Shown here: positions 18,007 to 24,271 of the stretch, piece after piece
Numbering within the stretch: the stretch's first letter is position 1
Layout: each line of letters opens with the position of its first letter
Source of the DNA: Thaumarchaeota archaeon CSP1-1
Lineage (GTDB): Archaea > Thermoproteota > Nitrososphaeria > Nitrososphaerales > Nitrosopumilaceae
Direction of reading: 5' to 3'
Assembly: GCA_001443365.1 (NCBI GenBank)
Contig: LDXL01000001.1
Coordinates: forward strand, 176,289-226,538
DNA length: 50,250 nucleotides
Notes under the pieces: generated by a model
Told to the model about the DNA's origin: nothing
The model's database searches: none
What the model saw: the letters and a program-made list of their open reading frames with translations, nothing else
Program-made: the position numbers and the translations under genes

Positions 18007-18042
18007 AAATATATGATAATACCTTACACTTTGTGGCCTGCC
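18007..18042 (-). promoter_or_regulatory. Island promoter C: GGCAGGCCACAA element plus TATA box
   Basis: On the minus strand GGCAGGCCACAA (18042-18031) is followed after about 14 nt by CATATATTTC (TATA-like), then the MSTI gene start at 17988. The layout and much of the sequence, including GGTATT just before the box, match the promoter of the paralogue at 24210-24271. The plus-strand half of the palindrome is missing here, so the exchanger gene on the other side is probably not under the same control. Confidence 0.6.
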
Positions 18043-18094
18043 TTATTGATAAAATAACAATAAAAAATGCTAATTAATAAAACAGGTATCAAAC

Positions 18095-19081
18095 ATGGGT
18101 AGAATTTTCTTTATAATTTTTTTAAAATATAACAAGAAATATCTATTACTATTTAATTTTGTTTTACTGATTATTTTTTTAGCAATCCTTGTTCGCAGTG
18201 CAATGTTTGCAATTGATTCACTAATCAAATTTTCAAAGATTACTGGAATAGGCGAGATAGCAGTTGGATTTATTATTGTTGCAGTATCTACTTCTGCACC
18301 AGAAATTAGTGTAGCATTTTTTTCCACTGCATCTAATAATGTTGGATTAACTTTAGGCGACATCTTTGGCTCGAATGTTACAAATATTGGCCTGATATCA
18401 GGTGTATTTCTTTTATTATCACCATTGAGAAGAATTGAGATAAAATCAACAGGAAGTTTGATTCCCATACTTTTACTTGCATCAGTTATTCCTCTTCTTT
18501 TGCTCTTGGTACAGGAAGGAGGAAGGTATATTGGTCTTGGTCTTTTAGCAGTCTTTGGATTTTTTATTTATTATTCCATTAGAACACATCTAAAACTAGA
18601 ACAGATAGAAAAAGAAAAGGGTTCTGCAAAAAAACAACTTGTATTTTATGGGATTGGCATTGCGATAGTAATTCTAAGTGCAAAGATGATAGTAGATAGT
18701 GCTTCTACAATAGCCGAGATTACTGGTTTTAAACAATCAGTAATTGGTGCAACATTGATTGCACTTGGAACATCACTACCAGAATTGACGGTTGATATAG
18801 TTGCAATAAGACGAAGACACTTTGAATTGGCCCTTGGAGACATTATAGGCTCTTGTTTGGTAAACATAACTTTGGTTCTTGGAATTGTTCTTGTACTGTC
18901 TGAAGTGGCAATTAACTTTCAGATATTATCAACGCTAATCTTTTTTGCCATAGTTTCTCCTGTGATTTTGTTTGGTTTGATTAGAAAAGGAAAGCTTTAC
19001 AGATGGAATGGCTTGGTGTTATTTGCAATTTATGGAATTTTCTTAATTACAATATATGAGATTCAATTATTTATTAGCTGA
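18095..19081 (+). CDS. Sodium/calcium exchanger family (CaCA) membrane protein
   Basis: The 328-residue integral membrane protein has two alpha-repeats: STSAPEISVAFFS with LGDIFGSNVTNIGLISG (about residues 65-105) and GTSLPELTVDIVA with LGDIIGSCLVNITLVLG (about residues 225-268). These form the inverted-repeat ion pore of the Ca2+:cation antiporter family. About ten membrane helices are expected. It probably exports Ca2+ or exchanges Na+ and another cation; the exact ions are not decided. It starts at ATG 18095, downstream of the region containing promoter element C, and lies inside the candidate island. Confidence 0.88.
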   Translation: MGRIFFIIFLKYNKKYLLLFNFVLLIIFLAILVRSAMFAIDSLIKFSKITGIGEIAVGFIIVAVSTSAPEISVAFFSTASNNVGLTLGDIFGSNVTNIGLISGVFLLLSPLRRIEIKSTGSLIPILLLASVIPLLLLLVQEGGRYIGLGLLAVFGFFIYYSIRTHLKLEQIEKEKGSAKKQLVFYGIGIAIVILSAKMIVDSASTIAEITGFKQSVIGATLIALGTSLPELTVDIVAIRRRHFELALGDIIGSCLVNITLVLGIVLVLSEVAINFQILSTLIFFAIVSPVILFGLIRKGKLYRWNGLVLFAIYGIFLITIYEIQLFIS

Positions 19082-19166
19082 ATCAGTTTTTGTTTACAAC
19101 ATCCTTGTTTCCTAAAATCATAGTATTACTTGGTGTTTTAAAAAAAATAAAAAAAGAAAATAGAGT

Positions 19167-19646
19167 CTATCGTGGATTGTATCCTGTCATGTGAAATAGC
19201 ATGCCCCATTCATCTGCAGCTTGGTTAAACTGAGATTTTGACATACCGCCAAATCCTTTTTTGAGCTCAAGCATTCTTTGCATTGCCTCGTGCTTTTCTA
19301 TCAAGTCTCCTCCAAGTGTTTTACTGTCCTTTGCTTTCATTACAGCACCATACACTTTGCACTCGCCTTTTGGAATGTTCTTGTTTACTCCAAGGACTTG
19401 TTTATCCATGTCAGACTTTAGCACAACTCCAGCTATCCCCATGGTATAATCGTTAGCACATACCTTAACGGAATAATACCACCAGTCCTTTTTGCCCTTT
19501 AGTTGCTCGATTTGATGTTTTGTCAGGTTTTTGTCTACTGAACCGTCGTGATTATAGTATGGTGCAGCGTCACCTGGCTGGTACATTGCAAAGAGCAGTC
19601 CTGCTGCTACAATTGAAGTTATTATCGCTGCTAGTTTTATTTTCAT
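19167..19646 (-). CDS. Secreted two-cysteine protein (pair A)
   Basis: The 159-residue protein has an N-terminal signal peptide (MKIKLAAIITSIVAAGLLFAM). The mature domain contains C88 in VKVCANDYTMG and C123 in KGECKVYG, separated by VVLKSDMDKQVLGVNKNI. The protein at 23578-24165 has the same arrangement, C then an LVSSDKEQFLG block then C-R-x-F, which I take as distant homology. Its start overlaps the zinc-finger gene by 4 nt, so the two are translationally coupled. Predicted to be outside the membrane; function unknown. Confidence 0.68.
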   Translation of the reverse strand: MKIKLAAIITSIVAAGLLFAMYQPGDAAPYYNHDGSVDKNLTKHQIEQLKGKKDWWYYSVKVCANDYTMGIAGVVLKSDMDKQVLGVNKNIPKGECKVYGAVMKAKDSKTLGGDLIEKHEAMQRMLELKKGFGGMSKSQFNQAADEWGMLFHMTGYNPR

Positions 19647-19996
19647 AAATCCACCTCCTTTTTCTTTTTTCTATCCTGATTGTTTGATCGGAGTTTTCCA
19701 AGTAATGCAAGATACTCGCAAGATAGATGTGAGCCATGTGGCACTTTATTTTCACACCTTGTACATTTTCTTTGGGAGGTTCTCTTGCAGACAAGACAGC
19801 TTGATGAGGGAGCTAGTGGACCTTCGCACTCTTTGCAAACAAACAGGATAGTTTTGACAAGGGTGTTCCCATCAAAGCGGAATTTTTGCTCTATGGGCTC
19901 GGAAATTTTTTGCTCTGGAAAAAGTGCAGTGGCAATTTTCGATTCATTGTCAGACCATATTTCGTTGATGGGAGGAAACCCTTGTTTGTTGTTCAC
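19643..19996 (-). CDS. Zinc-finger protein (pair A)
   Basis: The 117-residue soluble protein has clustered cysteines in its C-terminal half: CKECEGPLAPSSSCLVCKR and KCTRCENKVPHGSHLSC, giving two likely zinc sites. The N-terminal half is acidic and unassigned. It starts at GTG 19996 and is the first gene after the left half of the palindromic promoter at 20040-20076. It is followed with 4-nt overlap by a secreted protein. The pairing resembles the secreted/zinc-finger pair at 23363-24165. Possibly a regulator or metal-dependent chaperone; this is inference. Confidence 0.65.
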   Translation of the reverse strand: MNNKQGFPPINEIWSDNESKIATALFPEQKISEPIEQKFRFDGNTLVKTILFVCKECEGPLAPSSSCLVCKRTSQRKCTRCENKVPHGSHLSCEYLALLGKLRSNNQDRKKKKEVDL

Positions 19997-20010
19997 GAAA
20001 TGACAGTTAC

Positions 20011-20100
20011 AAAAATGATATTAGATAATACCTTTGGAATTGTGGCCTGCCATCTTTGACTAAAGGCATGCCACAAATGTTTAGTCATTTACATATAACA
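20011..20100. promoter_or_regulatory. Island promoter A: divergent palindromic operator with two TATA boxes
   Basis: TTGTGGCCTGCC (20040-20051) and GGCATGCCACAA (20065-20076) form an inverted repeat, 11 of 12 positions matching, around a 13-nt centre. Each arm is followed outward after about 12-15 nt by a TATA-like box: around 20014-20025 toward the zinc-finger gene and TTACATATAAC near 20087-20097 toward the histidine kinase. The same design is found at 24181-24271. Position upstream of the TATA box suggests an activator site. Confidence 0.65.
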
Positions 20101-20194
20101 CATCAAGATGACGACCATATGAGTGAAATCTTCTATCGAAAGGTAGATGAGTGCATTTTATTTTATTAAGATTGTACACATGGGGTTTGTCTAG

Positions 20195-22066
20195 ATGAGA
20201 ATCTCGCTAATCATGGTCTTTGCAATGTTTGGAATATTTCTTACGTTTGCAGTTTATGGAATTGTCACATTTGATCTGAGCATCCAGGAGATGAAAAAAC
20301 TACTTGGGACAAGAAACGAAGTGTTTGCCTTTAACATGATGCAGGATCTTGACAAGTATATTGACAAAAGGCTCAATGACTTTAAGGAATTAACAAAAGC
20401 AGCAGTCGTTCAAGAGTCCCTCAAAAAATCAAACTTGGAATTTAGAAAATTAGATAACCTTGAAACGTTATTAGAACAAAATAAAACCGATACTGATTTA
20501 AAATCAGACCCATTCATTCAGGGGATTACAAATGAAGAACTTACTGCAGAGCTTATCGATACAATTCAATTTTACAACAACGAATATGGGTATAATGTGG
20601 TAGAGGAGCTGTTTATCACAAATGAGTTTGGCGCAAATGTTGCATTAGGATCTGGAACCTCAGACTACAGACAGGACGATGAAGAGTGGTGGCAGATTAC
20701 AAAAAATGTCGGCCTCTATATTGGTGAGATAAAGTATCGAGAGGAATACGGTAACTATGCAACAGAAATTGGTTTTAGAATTGATGATGAGGGCGGACAT
20801 TTTCTTGGTGTGCTCAGAGTTGTTCTAACACTAGACGATTTGATTCATGAGTTTATCAATGATGCAGAGCTTATCAATCTGCCAAACAGAAATGGAGTTC
20901 TCCTTGACAGTCATGGACGAGTAATTTATTCTCACGGTGTTCAAGATTTTGCAAAAGCACAGCCTATCCCCTATTTTGATAGAATTCTAGAAGCAAAGGA
21001 AGTTGGAACAATTGAGCTAACAGACAAATCTGATGAGGTGAGAATAATTTCTTATGCAAAATCTACAGGATACAAGACATTTGCAGGATTTGACTGGGTT
21101 ACCGTAGTTGACCAGGCAAGCTCATCGTTTATTGACGAGTTTGTAGACCTTCGAGACTCTATTCTGATAACATCAGTAATTGGAATGATTAGCTCCATTG
21201 TAATTGGTGTTGTAGTGTCGATTTTCATAACTACCCCTCTCAAGGACCTTTCCCGTCTGGCAGAATCAATTTCCAAAGGAAAATTCAACGTCAAGGCAAA
21301 AAAAAGCAGGATCAACGAGATGAAGGTAATTGGAAACTCGTTTAACGAGATGTCAGAATCTCTCCAAAAACTGTTTGAAACTGAAAAAAAGCTTGCAGAG
21401 ACTCAAGCTAGAGTAAAAAACGAACGACTTGCAGGGATTGGAGAAATTGCTGCAAGCATGGCACACAACATGAAAAATCCTCTTGGTACAATTCGAAGCT
21501 CAGCTGATATAGTAAAAAGAAATGCAAAAGGAACCAACAAAGAGCTTGACGAGGTTCTATCGAGGATGGATAGAGCAATAGAGAGAATGTCACAACAAAT
21601 CGAGGATGTCTTGAATTTTGTCAGAGTATCTCCACTAATTGAAAGATCTGTTCCTGTCAAATCACTACTAGAGGGTGCAGTCGAATCAATTGACGTGCCA
21701 AAAAATATTACATTTGAAATTCCGCAAACAAATTTGCAGCTAAAGTGTGATCCAAAAAAAACTGAGATAGTCTTTATCAATATGTTCCTAAATGCAATAC
21801 AAGCCATCGGAAACAAGGAGGGTATCATCAAGGTTCGAGTTAAAGAGGAAAACAGTTTTGCCGTAATTGAAGTCGAAGACTCAGGGCCAGGAATCTCAGA
21901 GGAGATATTTCCTAAAATTTTTGGCCCCTTGGTGACAACAAAGGAACAGGGAACAGGGCTTGGCCTCTCAACATGTAGAAATATTATCGAACAGCATGGA
22001 GGAACAATCTCTGCAAAAAACTATCCAACAACATTTACCATAAAGATTCCATTAAAAAATGATTGA
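20195..22066 (+). CDS. Membrane sensor histidine kinase (CACHE-HAMP-HisKA-HATPase)
   Basis: The 623-residue kinase has one membrane segment at about residues 5-27, an extracytoplasmic sensor region of about 290 residues with double-CACHE character, a second segment at about 322-345 (ILITSVIGMISSIVIGVVVS), a HAMP linker and a HisKA domain with phospho-acceptor H424 in MAHNMKNPLGT. The ATPase domain follows, with the N-box FINMFLNAIQAI, G1 DSGPGISEE and G2 TGLGLST. It should autophosphorylate in response to an external ligand and signal to the regulator encoded 40 nt downstream. It is under the right arm of promoter A. The ligand is unknown. Confidence 0.93.
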   Translation: MRISLIMVFAMFGIFLTFAVYGIVTFDLSIQEMKKLLGTRNEVFAFNMMQDLDKYIDKRLNDFKELTKAAVVQESLKKSNLEFRKLDNLETLLEQNKTDTDLKSDPFIQGITNEELTAELIDTIQFYNNEYGYNVVEELFITNEFGANVALGSGTSDYRQDDEEWWQITKNVGLYIGEIKYREEYGNYATEIGFRIDDEGGHFLGVLRVVLTLDDLIHEFINDAELINLPNRNGVLLDSHGRVIYSHGVQDFAKAQPIPYFDRILEAKEVGTIELTDKSDEVRIISYAKSTGYKTFAGFDWVTVVDQASSSFIDEFVDLRDSILITSVIGMISSIVIGVVVSIFITTPLKDLSRLAESISKGKFNVKAKKSRINEMKVIGNSFNEMSESLQKLFETEKKLAETQARVKNERLAGIGEIAASMAHNMKNPLGTIRSSADIVKRNAKGTNKELDEVLSRMDRAIERMSQQIEDVLNFVRVSPLIERSVPVKSLLEGAVESIDVPKNITFEIPQTNLQLKCDPKKTEIVFINMFLNAIQAIGNKEGIIKVRVKEENSFAVIEVEDSGPGISEEIFPKIFGPLVTTKEQGTGLGLSTCRNIIEQHGGTISAKNYPTTFTIKIPLKND

Positions 22067-22106
22067 TTCGAAAGTCTTATCATGCTCAAAATTGCATTGA
22101 ATAAAA

Positions 22107-22469
22107 ATGGAAAATAAAACAGTCCTACTTGTAGATGATGACGTAGACCTACTTGAGAACACTGCATACATGATAAAAAGTACCGGCTATGAGGTAATTA
22201 CAGCAAAAAACGGCCTAGAAGCCGTTGAAAAATACAAGGAAATTTCCCCGGCGCTAGTTATAATGGACATTAAAATGCCAAAAATGGATGGCTATGACGC
22301 ATTTTTTAAAATAAAGCAGTTTGATCCCAAAGCGAAAATAATTCTCATAACGGCATATACCCTTGATGAAAAAAAGCACCTCAAGGCAAAAAGCATGGAC
22401 CTAATTGCCACAATCAGCAAACCATACACCTTTGAGCAAATTGAGGAGATTGTAACAAAATATGCCTAG
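22107..22469 (+). CDS. Response regulator, receiver domain only (CheY-like)
   Basis: The 120-residue protein is a single receiver domain: acidic pocket D10-D12 in LLVDDDVD, phospho-acceptor D54 in VIMDIKMPKMDG, T82 in LITAYT and K105 in ISKPY. No output domain is attached, so it must signal by protein contact. It follows the histidine kinase and is the obvious phosphorylation partner. Its stop overlaps the stop of the convergent winged-helix gene in a shared CTAG. Confidence 0.93.
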   Translation: MENKTVLLVDDDVDLLENTAYMIKSTGYEVITAKNGLEAVEKYKEISPALVIMDIKMPKMDGYDAFFKIKQFDPKAKIILITAYTLDEKKHLKAKSMDLIATISKPYTFEQIEEIVTKYA

Positions 22470-23332
22470 ATCTTTTGCAGTTTTTTGATCTTCTGAAAAC
22501 GTGTGTTGTAGAATTTAATTGCCTCATCAACAAAGTCATAGTATGATTTTTTGAGCTCGCCATCTCCATTGATTACTTTTTTCCATTGTTTTATTTCTAG
22601 CGATGATTTTTTTCCTTGCGTGTTTAGTTTTGAAGGAACAAGTAGTGTTGTATAAAACCAGTATGAGATTTGATTGGCAAGATCTTCTTCGTTAATTTGC
22701 TCAAAATTATTTTGATACTTTACATTAAGGTAAATCATCAGCTCATAAACTGGAAAGTTTGTAATCTTGGCAATCTGTATGTTGTCCATAAACAGCCCTG
22801 CAGCAAGACTGTGTAATCGATAAACCTCTTTTCCAATATTTTCTTTCAGATAGTCCCATTTTCCAAATATCATTGGCAAAACATTGGCATACTTTGATGC
22901 CATCGTATCGACCTGCTTGTCTGTCAGGTTTAAAACATCAAGACAATACAATATTCCATGAAGAGAGAGTCTGTATTGATTTGCCTCTCCCTTGAGAAGG
23001 CTTTTTCCGTCTTTGACTACTAGTCCGACTTCTAATAGTCCAAGTGTGTGTTTTCCTCGTGCAGTTCTGCCAGCAAGTAGTCTTCTGTAGTCTTTTTCTT
23101 TTGATCTGATGCTTGCAGTATTATCATTGTGGGTTTTTGCCATTCCCCATGTGGTCAGAGTTCCATGAAGAGCAAGAATCTCTAGCATGCGTTGAACATT
23201 TTCATGGTGTTTTGGTCCTGATTTTCTTCGAAACGAATACTTGCCAAAGAGTCGTTGTGCAGTTGGTCTTGTATACATTTTGTAAGATTGCAGATTCCCA
23301 TACACTGTTCCTTGTTCGTTAGGAGAAGGCAT
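22466..23332 (-). CDS. Winged-helix-like DNA-binding protein, function unknown
   Basis: In this 288-residue protein, residues about 40-130 (KHHENVQRMLEILALHGTLT ... GLLEVGLVVKDGKS) look like a winged-helix DNA-binding domain. The rest is helical with no known motif. No recombinase catalytic residues are seen. It is the last gene of a minus-strand set with the secreted protein and zinc-finger gene of pair B and faces the two-component genes. Its ATG lies inside the palindrome GGCATGCC (23328-23335). It is a candidate transcription factor for the island promoters; this is inference. Confidence 0.65.
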   Translation of the reverse strand: MPSPNEQGTVYGNLQSYKMYTRPTAQRLFGKYSFRRKSGPKHHENVQRMLEILALHGTLTTWGMAKTHNDNTASIRSKEKDYRRLLAGRTARGKHTLGLLEVGLVVKDGKSLLKGEANQYRLSLHGILYCLDVLNLTDKQVDTMASKYANVLPMIFGKWDYLKENIGKEVYRLHSLAAGLFMDNIQIAKITNFPVYELMIYLNVKYQNNFEQINEEDLANQISYWFYTTLLVPSKLNTQGKKSSLEIKQWKKVINGDGELKKSYYDFVDEAIKFYNTRFQKIKKLQKI

Positions 23333-23337
23333 GCCAC
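23328..23337 (+). promoter_or_regulatory. GGCATGCCAC site over the start codon of the winged-helix gene
   Basis: Ten bases identical to the core of the island promoter arm (20065-20074). The CAT inside it is the start codon of the 22466-23332 gene on the minus strand. It could serve for autoregulation, but no TATA box is placed as in the other copies, so coincidence is possible. Confidence 0.3.
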
Positions 23338-23362
23338 GTATTACCGGTCTAATTATAAGAAT

Positions 23363-23569
23363 TTACTTGCAAATGACCTTCATAATAAGTGGCATCACTG
23401 TTAGGGCTTCTAGGTTTTTTGGAGTAAAACAAAAACCATCATGAAATCGCTCTAGTGTCTTTTGGGCACAAATTCTGCAAACAAACTGGACTACATCCCT
23501 ACAGTTTGCACAAATTAGATACTCGATTAACATACCACCACAGCTTCGGCAAGACTCATCTGGCATCAT
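23363..23569 (-). CDS. Small zinc-finger protein (pair B)
   Basis: The 68-residue protein has three CxxC pairs: CRSCGG near residue 7, CANCRD near 20 and CRICAQ near 31, consistent with two zinc sites sharing ligands. The rest is hydrophobic and short. The start lies 8 nt after the stop of the secreted protein upstream and its stop is 30 nt before the winged-helix gene, so the three are likely one operon. Function unknown; counterpart of the 117-residue protein of pair A. Confidence 0.6.
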   Translation of the reverse strand: MMPDESCRSCGGMLIEYLICANCRDVVQFVCRICAQKTLERFHDGFCFTPKNLEALTVMPLIMKVICK

Positions 23570-23577
23570 GGATTCAC

Positions 23578-24165
23578 CTAAAGCCTCTTTACTTTCAAAT
23601 GTGAATACTCTGATAGGTCTGCAACATGTTCAACTGATATGCTGGTAGGATTTTGTGTCTGTAAGTAGGTTGAAAATGTTCTGCAGGTATTTGCAGAGAT
23701 CATCTTAGTTGATAAGCCAAGGAATTGCTCTTTATCAGAACTCACAAGAAAATTGGGTATAACTTTATTTGTTGAAGCACATGCTGAAAAACCTGCAAGA
23801 AATCGTGTATGACCAACCTTAAGCTTGTGAGTAATACTGATTTTTAGTTTTGAATTTGTCGACTCGTTCTTCTTTACATTGACTGACTTGTCAAAATACT
23901 GATCGACTTTGTCCTTTCCCTTAAATGTCCAATCGGGATCCTTGTATAGCTTGATACATTCTCTAATAAACGACTTGAAATCATATCTTTTTAGAAATTC
24001 TGCCTCGCCAAATTTTTTGTAATTAAAGTAAAGGAGTTCACACTGCTTAAGTTGGTTTTTTGTTAGTTTCTGAGCATACACGCTTGTGAAAAAGCTGTTT
24101 GTTGCAGCTAAAAGAAGACTCGATATTGCAATTATTGCAAATAATTTTAATCGTAACGAAATCAA
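23578..24165 (-). CDS. Secreted two-cysteine protein (pair B)
   Basis: The 195-residue protein has a signal peptide (MISLRLKLFAIIAISSLLLAATNSF), an N-terminal helical part beginning LTKNQLKQCELLYF, and a C-terminal domain with ACASTNKVIPNFLVSSDKEQ, FLGLS and NTCRTFSTYLQ. This last domain resembles that of the 159-residue secreted protein (LTKHQIEQLKG; C-x-LKSDMDKQVLG-x-C-K-x-Y). It is the first gene of a minus-strand operon starting at the left arm of promoter B. Predicted extracytoplasmic; function unknown. Confidence 0.66.
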   Translation of the reverse strand: MISLRLKLFAIIAISSLLLAATNSFFTSVYAQKLTKNQLKQCELLYFNYKKFGEAEFLKRYDFKSFIRECIKLYKDPDWTFKGKDKVDQYFDKSVNVKKNESTNSKLKISITHKLKVGHTRFLAGFSACASTNKVIPNFLVSSDKEQFLGLSTKMISANTCRTFSTYLQTQNPTSISVEHVADLSEYSHLKVKRL

Positions 24166-24180
24166 CTAAAGAGACTTGGA

Positions 24181-24271
24181 GTATTGTTATAATACAATAA
24201 TTTTCGTAATGTGGCCTGCCTTTTTGATCTTAAAGCATGCCACAAAGTGCTGGGTATTGTCATATATTCCA
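24181..24271. promoter_or_regulatory. Island promoter B: divergent palindromic operator with two TATA boxes
   Basis: TGTGGCCTGCC (24210-24220) and GCATGCCACAA (24235-24245) form an inverted repeat around a 14-nt centre similar to that of promoter A. TATA-like boxes lie outward: TTGTATTATAAC on the minus strand (24197-24186) for the secreted protein operon, and CATATATTC (24262-24270) for the MSTI-type gene. Spacing between arm and box is about 13-15 nt on both sides. Confidence 0.65.

Follow-up and report, generated by a model that had tools for sequence, protein, structure and literature searches.

A conserved promoter box and a kinase–receiver–p288 gene neighbourhood suggest a regulon of Nitrosopumilaceae

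Introduction

Which protein reads a promoter element that stands at one fixed distance from the start codons of several unrelated genes? This question is raised by a stretch of Thaumarchaeota archaeon CSP1-1 (contig LDXL01000001.1), called the window hereafter and analyzed over its full 50,250 nucleotides (nt). In it, a 12-nt element, the box, precedes small-protein genes and lies close to genes for a histidine kinase, a receiver-only response regulator, and a 288-residue protein that we name p288. We give a probability of roughly 0.55 to the reading in which GGCATGCCACAA is the operator of a Nitrosopumilaceae regulon, a signal would pass from the kinase through the receiver to p288, and p288 would activate the box promoters and repress its own gene. 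That p288 is the direct binder of the box, whether as an activator or as a repressor, is in our view likely.

Results

Five promoters of one design

Five promoters of the same design were found within 6.2 kb (Table 1). Each carries the box GGCA(T/G)GCCACAA, which includes the parts GGCATGCC and CACAA, followed by 9 unconserved nt, YAT, 4 nt, and an AT-rich TATA heptamer; Boxes 4 and 5 have one mismatch each to this consensus. A start codon is present 42 or 43 nt past the box at 5/5 sites, and because the TATA-to-start distance fits leaderless transcripts, the mRNAs made from these promoters are probably leaderless. Two of the promoters serve MSTI genes, two serve zinc-ribbon/secreted operons, and one serves the histidine-kinase side.

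An earlier sequence-only reading had described a shared element at 18031-18042, 20040-20076, and 24210-24245, with half-sites facing outward and a TATA-like box 12-15 nt downstream. The element was recovered at all three places, the last pair starting at 24209, and its CACAA ends do point outward; the distance needs correction, as 16 nt separate the end of the box from the TATA heptamer. The proposed link to the MSTI genes and to both secreted/zinc-finger sets holds, while the link to the histidine kinase is indirect: downstream of Box 3 (20065), a 16-codon open reading frame (ORF) begins with the codon at +42, and the kinase ATG lies 76 nt beyond this codon at 20119. This short ORF is possibly a leader peptide or the relic of a small regulon gene.

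When up to two mismatches were allowed, a scan of the window gave 11 matches against 2.8 expected, a number reached in 0/100 shuffles. In the organism's own genome (1.36 Mb), all three exact matches and 5 of the 11 one-mismatch matches fall inside the 6.2 kb (binomial p ~9e-10). A 41-nt profile, whose training set included 4/5 of the window sites, returned exactly these five as the complete sites of this genome, the next-ranked matches lacking the box; the exact-pattern search is independent of the profile.

The box and its geometry in related genomes

Among 200 Nitrosopumilaceae genomes, the exact half-site count was far above that of a reversed control, and in many relatives the exact matches form tight clusters with the same promoter geometry. 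The profile identified 32 of 250 family genomes at E<=0.001, and 21 of these 32 hold 2-10 sites; this search used stricter filters, under-detects the G-type box, and included some incomplete metagenome-assembled genomes. The fetched loci hold 163 distinct sites. An ORF opens 36-51 nt past the box at 133 of them, and the distance is 42/43 nt in 105 of these 133, a statistic that includes related sites. The box columns carry 1.4-2.0 bits of information and most YAT/TATA positions ~1-1.9, the spacer and flanks mostly <0.6. Together with the spacing, this pattern points to selection on the box, the TATA element, and the distance between them rather than to simple duplication.

The downstream gene families recur and are yet unrelated to one another, consisting of zinc-ribbon proteins, small proteins with xxGLSWxxxDD or KRRCI at their end, secreted proteins ~190 amino acids (aa) long, and a few others; the sites are therefore not copies of one duplicated cassette. 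This bears on a further possibility, namely that the box is a non-functional, passively copied repeat or cassette, such as a miniature inverted-repeat transposable element, a repetitive extragenic palindrome, or a recent tandem duplication. Paralogy of the MSTI genes and the close clustering of several boxes speak for such copying. However, conservation is limited to the promoter elements (box, YAT, and TATA), with no homology over a whole repeat, near-random spacer and flanks, and a fixed start-codon spacing, and the arrangement in front of unrelated genes is maintained across genera. We regard passive copying as very improbable.

A dedicated regulon within the island had been proposed from the sequence, with the expectation that a motif search of the genome and its relatives would meet only these gene families. 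The search supported this, as complete sites at home are confined to the cluster and relatives share its box, geometry, and families of genes; the single island does not extend to other species, where the regulon is scattered over several loci. On these comparative grounds the box marks a putative operator-defined regulon, being a site at a fixed promoter position that is enriched over the control and common to several species. The exact two-arm pattern was found, family-wide, in the own genome only, since most relatives use single boxes: there, the start of the kinase gene is 53-64 nt away from one box that faces outward, and a second, kinase-facing box is present here and in a near copy of the pattern in one other genome (G044).

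Some matches fall outside this picture. Exact A-type box matches in g15/g16 genomes were treated as chance, being mostly within coding sequence and without the geometry. In one genome (G132, L068-L072), exact boxes that lack the promoter geometry sit ~40 nt from the ends of many contigs, within GC-rich sequence that is identical from end to end of these contigs' copies; these are a repeat or an assembly artefact, not regulon sites. Another genome, which is 78% complete, has four G-type boxes in 1.2 kb (G030:C118:2443-3592), and no p288-family gene was found in it. Conserved 260-aa proteins, to which no function was assigned, are encoded downstream of boxes at L061:4334, L073:3673, and L095:4525.

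The p288 gene accompanies the box and the kinase–receiver pair

A zinc-ribbon/secreted set, the box, the kinase, the receiver, and p288 follow one another in this order in other genera as well, among them Nitrosopumilus, Nitrosarchaeum, and Candidatus Nitrosotenuis. Judged by sequence identity, p288 is the most conserved member of the cluster, with 60-78% across genera versus ~50-54% for the best kinase matches and ~35-50% for the zinc-ribbon proteins. Relatives of the receiver and the kinase lie alongside the p288 paralog at 19/19 loci (L186-L204). The paralog family is present in many genomes of the Nitrosopumilaceae, often with a G-type box (GGCATRCCGCAA) nearby, and suggests that one genome may hold several regulons in parallel. 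Of the G-type boxes, 45/112 are no more than 12 kb away from a p288-family gene.

Canonical p288 and at least two boxes occur together in 19 of the 250 genomes, p288 only in 1 (G158), boxes only in 2, and neither in 228 (Fisher p=2.8e-25), with one genome (G014) counted from two contig fragments and the Nitrosotenuis-type genomes, whose G-type box the profile under-detects, placed in the "neither" cell. In an even sample of the order, p288 was detected in the own family (Nitrosopumilaceae) only, and none was found in viral contigs.

A box covers the start codon in most p288 genes

Nearly all canonical p288 genes, and most of the paralogous ones, have their start codon within a box, which reads TTGTGG[C/T]-ATG or TTGCGG[C/T]-ATG with small variations. 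The p288 genes with this box have a TATA-like element upstream at leaderless distance; a protein bound to the box would therefore cover the p288 start and, at the same time, be placed upstream of the promoter that points the other way.

A site of this kind resembles that of a repressor, and the predicted p288 topology is like that of winged-helix regulators, many of which are repressors. The same system could thus work with the opposite sign, p288 binding the box and repressing all regulon promoters until the kinase signal lifts the repression. At the regulon promoters, however, the box is upstream of TATA at rigid spacing, and a repressor site would be expected more often on top of TATA or of the start; archaeal activators usually bind upstream of TATA at rigid spacing. 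General repression appears unlikely to us.

Residue 91 of p288 follows the box type

In every case with a start-region box, A in the box goes with Ala or Ser at residue 91 of p288, and G goes with Asp91. Residue 91 is one of 4 fully segregating columns among 302 and the sole one inside the predicted DNA-binding region; it is a candidate specificity residue. Several genomes (e.g., G013 and G231) carry both types of p288, each near its own box type.

It could also be that another factor, such as a specialized TFB or an unlinked transcription factor, binds the box, p288 being a mere regulon member that modulates signaling. A dedicated basal factor is conceivable, as the box lies a short way upstream of the YAT-N4-TATA core, and two genomes (G039 and G155) hold boxes without canonical p288. 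Against this, the box type tracks the p288 type even inside single genomes, and the start-codon box is a trait of p288-family genes, paralogs included. No TFB was noticed at the inspected loci, where no systematic TFB search was made. We therefore rate a different binder as improbable, a little more so than general repression by p288.

Predicted structure of p288

An AlphaFold model of p288 shows helix-helix-helix-strand-strand-helix over residues 41-134, which is the winged-helix order, with a predicted local distance difference test score (pLDDT) of ~70-88 for residues 41-90 and lower values in the wing. Foldseek returned no match below 0.001 for the model, winged-helix regulators being frequent among the weak matches; a domain-only prediction was poor (pLDDT 46), and the winged-helix fold is thus a lead rather than a result. 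Nothing significant was found in a viral structure library, no notable match to a known winged helix-turn-helix (HTH) family in Pfam, NCBIfam, or PDB, and only unrelated weak matches when a p288 profile was compared with PDB sequences.

Genes of the cluster

The coordinates of the boxes and genes are collected in Table 1. The adjacent kinase and receiver genes form, by their domains, a two-component pair (HisKA 2e-12, HATPase 7e-22, Response_reg 5e-24), and the sensor region of the kinase is dCache-like, below the Pfam cutoff. The p288 and receiver ORFs overlap at their ends here. None of the small, zinc-ribbon, and secreted proteins of the window had a Pfam or NCBIfam match over the cutoff. 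A Na/Ca exchanger gene (18095-19081) diverges from Box 1, and no box faces it.

Table 1 Boxes and genes of the cluster (positions in the window)
Feature	Positions	Strand	Remarks
Box 1, GGCAGGCCACAA	18031-18042	(-)	TATA heptamer 18008-18014; ATG 17988 of MSTI gene (42 nt)
Box 2, GGCAGGCCACAA	20040-20051	(-)	TATA 20017-20023; GTG 19996 of zinc-ribbon/secreted operon (43 nt)
Box 3, GGCATGCCACAA	20065-20076	(+)	TATA 20093-20099; ATG 20119 (42 nt) of 16-codon ORF before kinase gene
Box 4, GGCAGGCCACAT	24209-24220	(-)	TATA 24186-24192; TTG 24165 of secreted/zinc-ribbon operon (43 nt)
Box 5, AGCATGCCACAA	24234-24245	(+)	TATA 24262-24268; ATG 24288 of MSTI gene (42 nt)
Sixth box, degraded, GGCATGCCACGT	23328-23339	(+)	Includes the start codon of p288; most relatives have it intact
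MSTI-type small protein, 63 aa	17797-17988	(-)	C-terminal AEDLMGLSWVLFDD motif
Secreted protein, 159 aa	19167-19646	(-)	Overlaps end of zinc-ribbon gene (operon)
Zinc-ribbon protein, 117 aa	19643-19996	(-)	CxxC..CxxCK
16-codon ORF, MSEIFYRKVDECILFY	20119-20169	(+)	Opens exactly at the expected 42-nt position, before kinase
Histidine kinase, 623 aa	20195-22066	(+)	HAMP-HisKA-HATPase
Receiver-only response regulator, 120 aa	22107-22469	(+)	Response_reg
p288, candidate box-binding regulator, 288 aa	22466-23332	(-)	Convergent with response regulator gene
Zinc-ribbon protein, 68 aa	23363-23569	(-)	
Secreted protein, 195 aa	23578-24165	(-)	TTG start
MSTI-type small protein, 70 aa	24288-24500	(+)	C-terminal CxxC..CxxCGxKSW zinc motif

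Discussion

A path from kinase to receiver to p288 acting at the box fits the gene neighborhood, the operator on the p288 start, and the placement of the box upstream in regulon promoters. The kinase would sense a signal and phosphorylate the receiver-only regulator, which would act on the separately encoded, putative DNA-binding protein p288. Bound to the box just upstream of the TATA region, p288 would promote transcription of the small MSTI/GLSW, zinc-ribbon, and secreted proteins. In most species, where the p288 gene, probably leaderless, has its own start under the box, p288 would repress itself and activate the divergent gene. The 288-residue protein had been named as a candidate factor by the sequence-only reading, and comparative evidence (conservation, co-occurrence, the start-codon box, and residue 91) now favors it. 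The sequences themselves show the box, its fixed geometry, the set of genes behind it, the conserved kinase–receiver–p288 neighborhood, the operator at the start codon, and the paired change of residue and base; from them we infer direct binding, a winged-helix fold, activation, autorepression, and a phosphorelay that brings the signal to p288.

Several observations weigh against this account. The two genomes with boxes and without canonical p288 do not conform to it, and the box and p288 are often physically linked, so their co-occurrence is inflated. The start-codon box of p288 is degraded in the own genome and is there without a divergent gene; p288 is possibly transcribed here from Box 4, by read-through of the 24165 operon. 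Confidence in the full-length model is low (pLDDT 61), none of its structure matches is significant, and the contact between receiver and p288 is a presumed step. Residue 91 and the box base changed only once on the tree and therefore represent one correlated event, not repeated coevolution.

A broader proposal, which we hold tentatively and at slightly less than even odds, is that p288 and its paralogs may be Nitrosopumilaceae-specific DNA-binding output partners of receiver-only regulators, each controlling a regulon of its own and also itself via a start-codon operator, with a specificity switched by Asp91->Ala/Ser matched to G->A in the box.

Our literature searches found no report of the box or of such a regulon in ammonia-oxidising archaea. 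The route by which bare receivers act on the genome is still an open question (PMC5847659), to which the trio of genes, the operator, its geometry, and the short target list offer a concrete and testable answer. The box with a start codon at 42/43 nt also provides an annotation handle for dozens of unannotated small genes, and the system suggests how ammonia-oxidising archaea turn sensing into gene control.

Comparison with known systems

In the archaeal two-component census, stand-alone receivers, most of which have no conserved neighborhood, make up ~75% of thaumarchaeal response regulators, and their interaction with neighboring HTH proteins is undemonstrated (PMC5847659). The locus resembles the thaumarchaeal CheY-like receivers beside HTH genes in that a receiver-only regulator adjoins a predicted DNA-binding protein. 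The named receiver-HTH pairs involve divergent arCOG03067 ArsR/HTH_20 proteins, e.g., Nmar_0452-Nmar_0453 (PMC5847659). In contrast, p288 is convergent, has no Pfam match, is accompanied by a kinase, and can be linked to an operator and a regulon; because of its orientation and because no HTH_20 domain was matched in it, we did not file p288 under arCOG03067/ArsR.

The predicted order of elements in residues 41-134 and the weak Foldseek matches liken p288 to the MarR, IdeR, PadR, and AspA winged-helix regulators, from which it differs in having no significant structure or sequence match and in a long C-terminal helical part, to which no function was assigned. The FilI/FilR1-FilR2 system of Methanosaeta (PMC5847659) likewise has an archaeal kinase with a receiver that stands alone; its transcription regulator is of the winged-helix kind, which the predicted element order of p288 would fit. 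FilR1 fuses the winged helix, DUF1724, and a receiver, whereas at this locus separate genes encode the receiver and the candidate DNA-binding protein.

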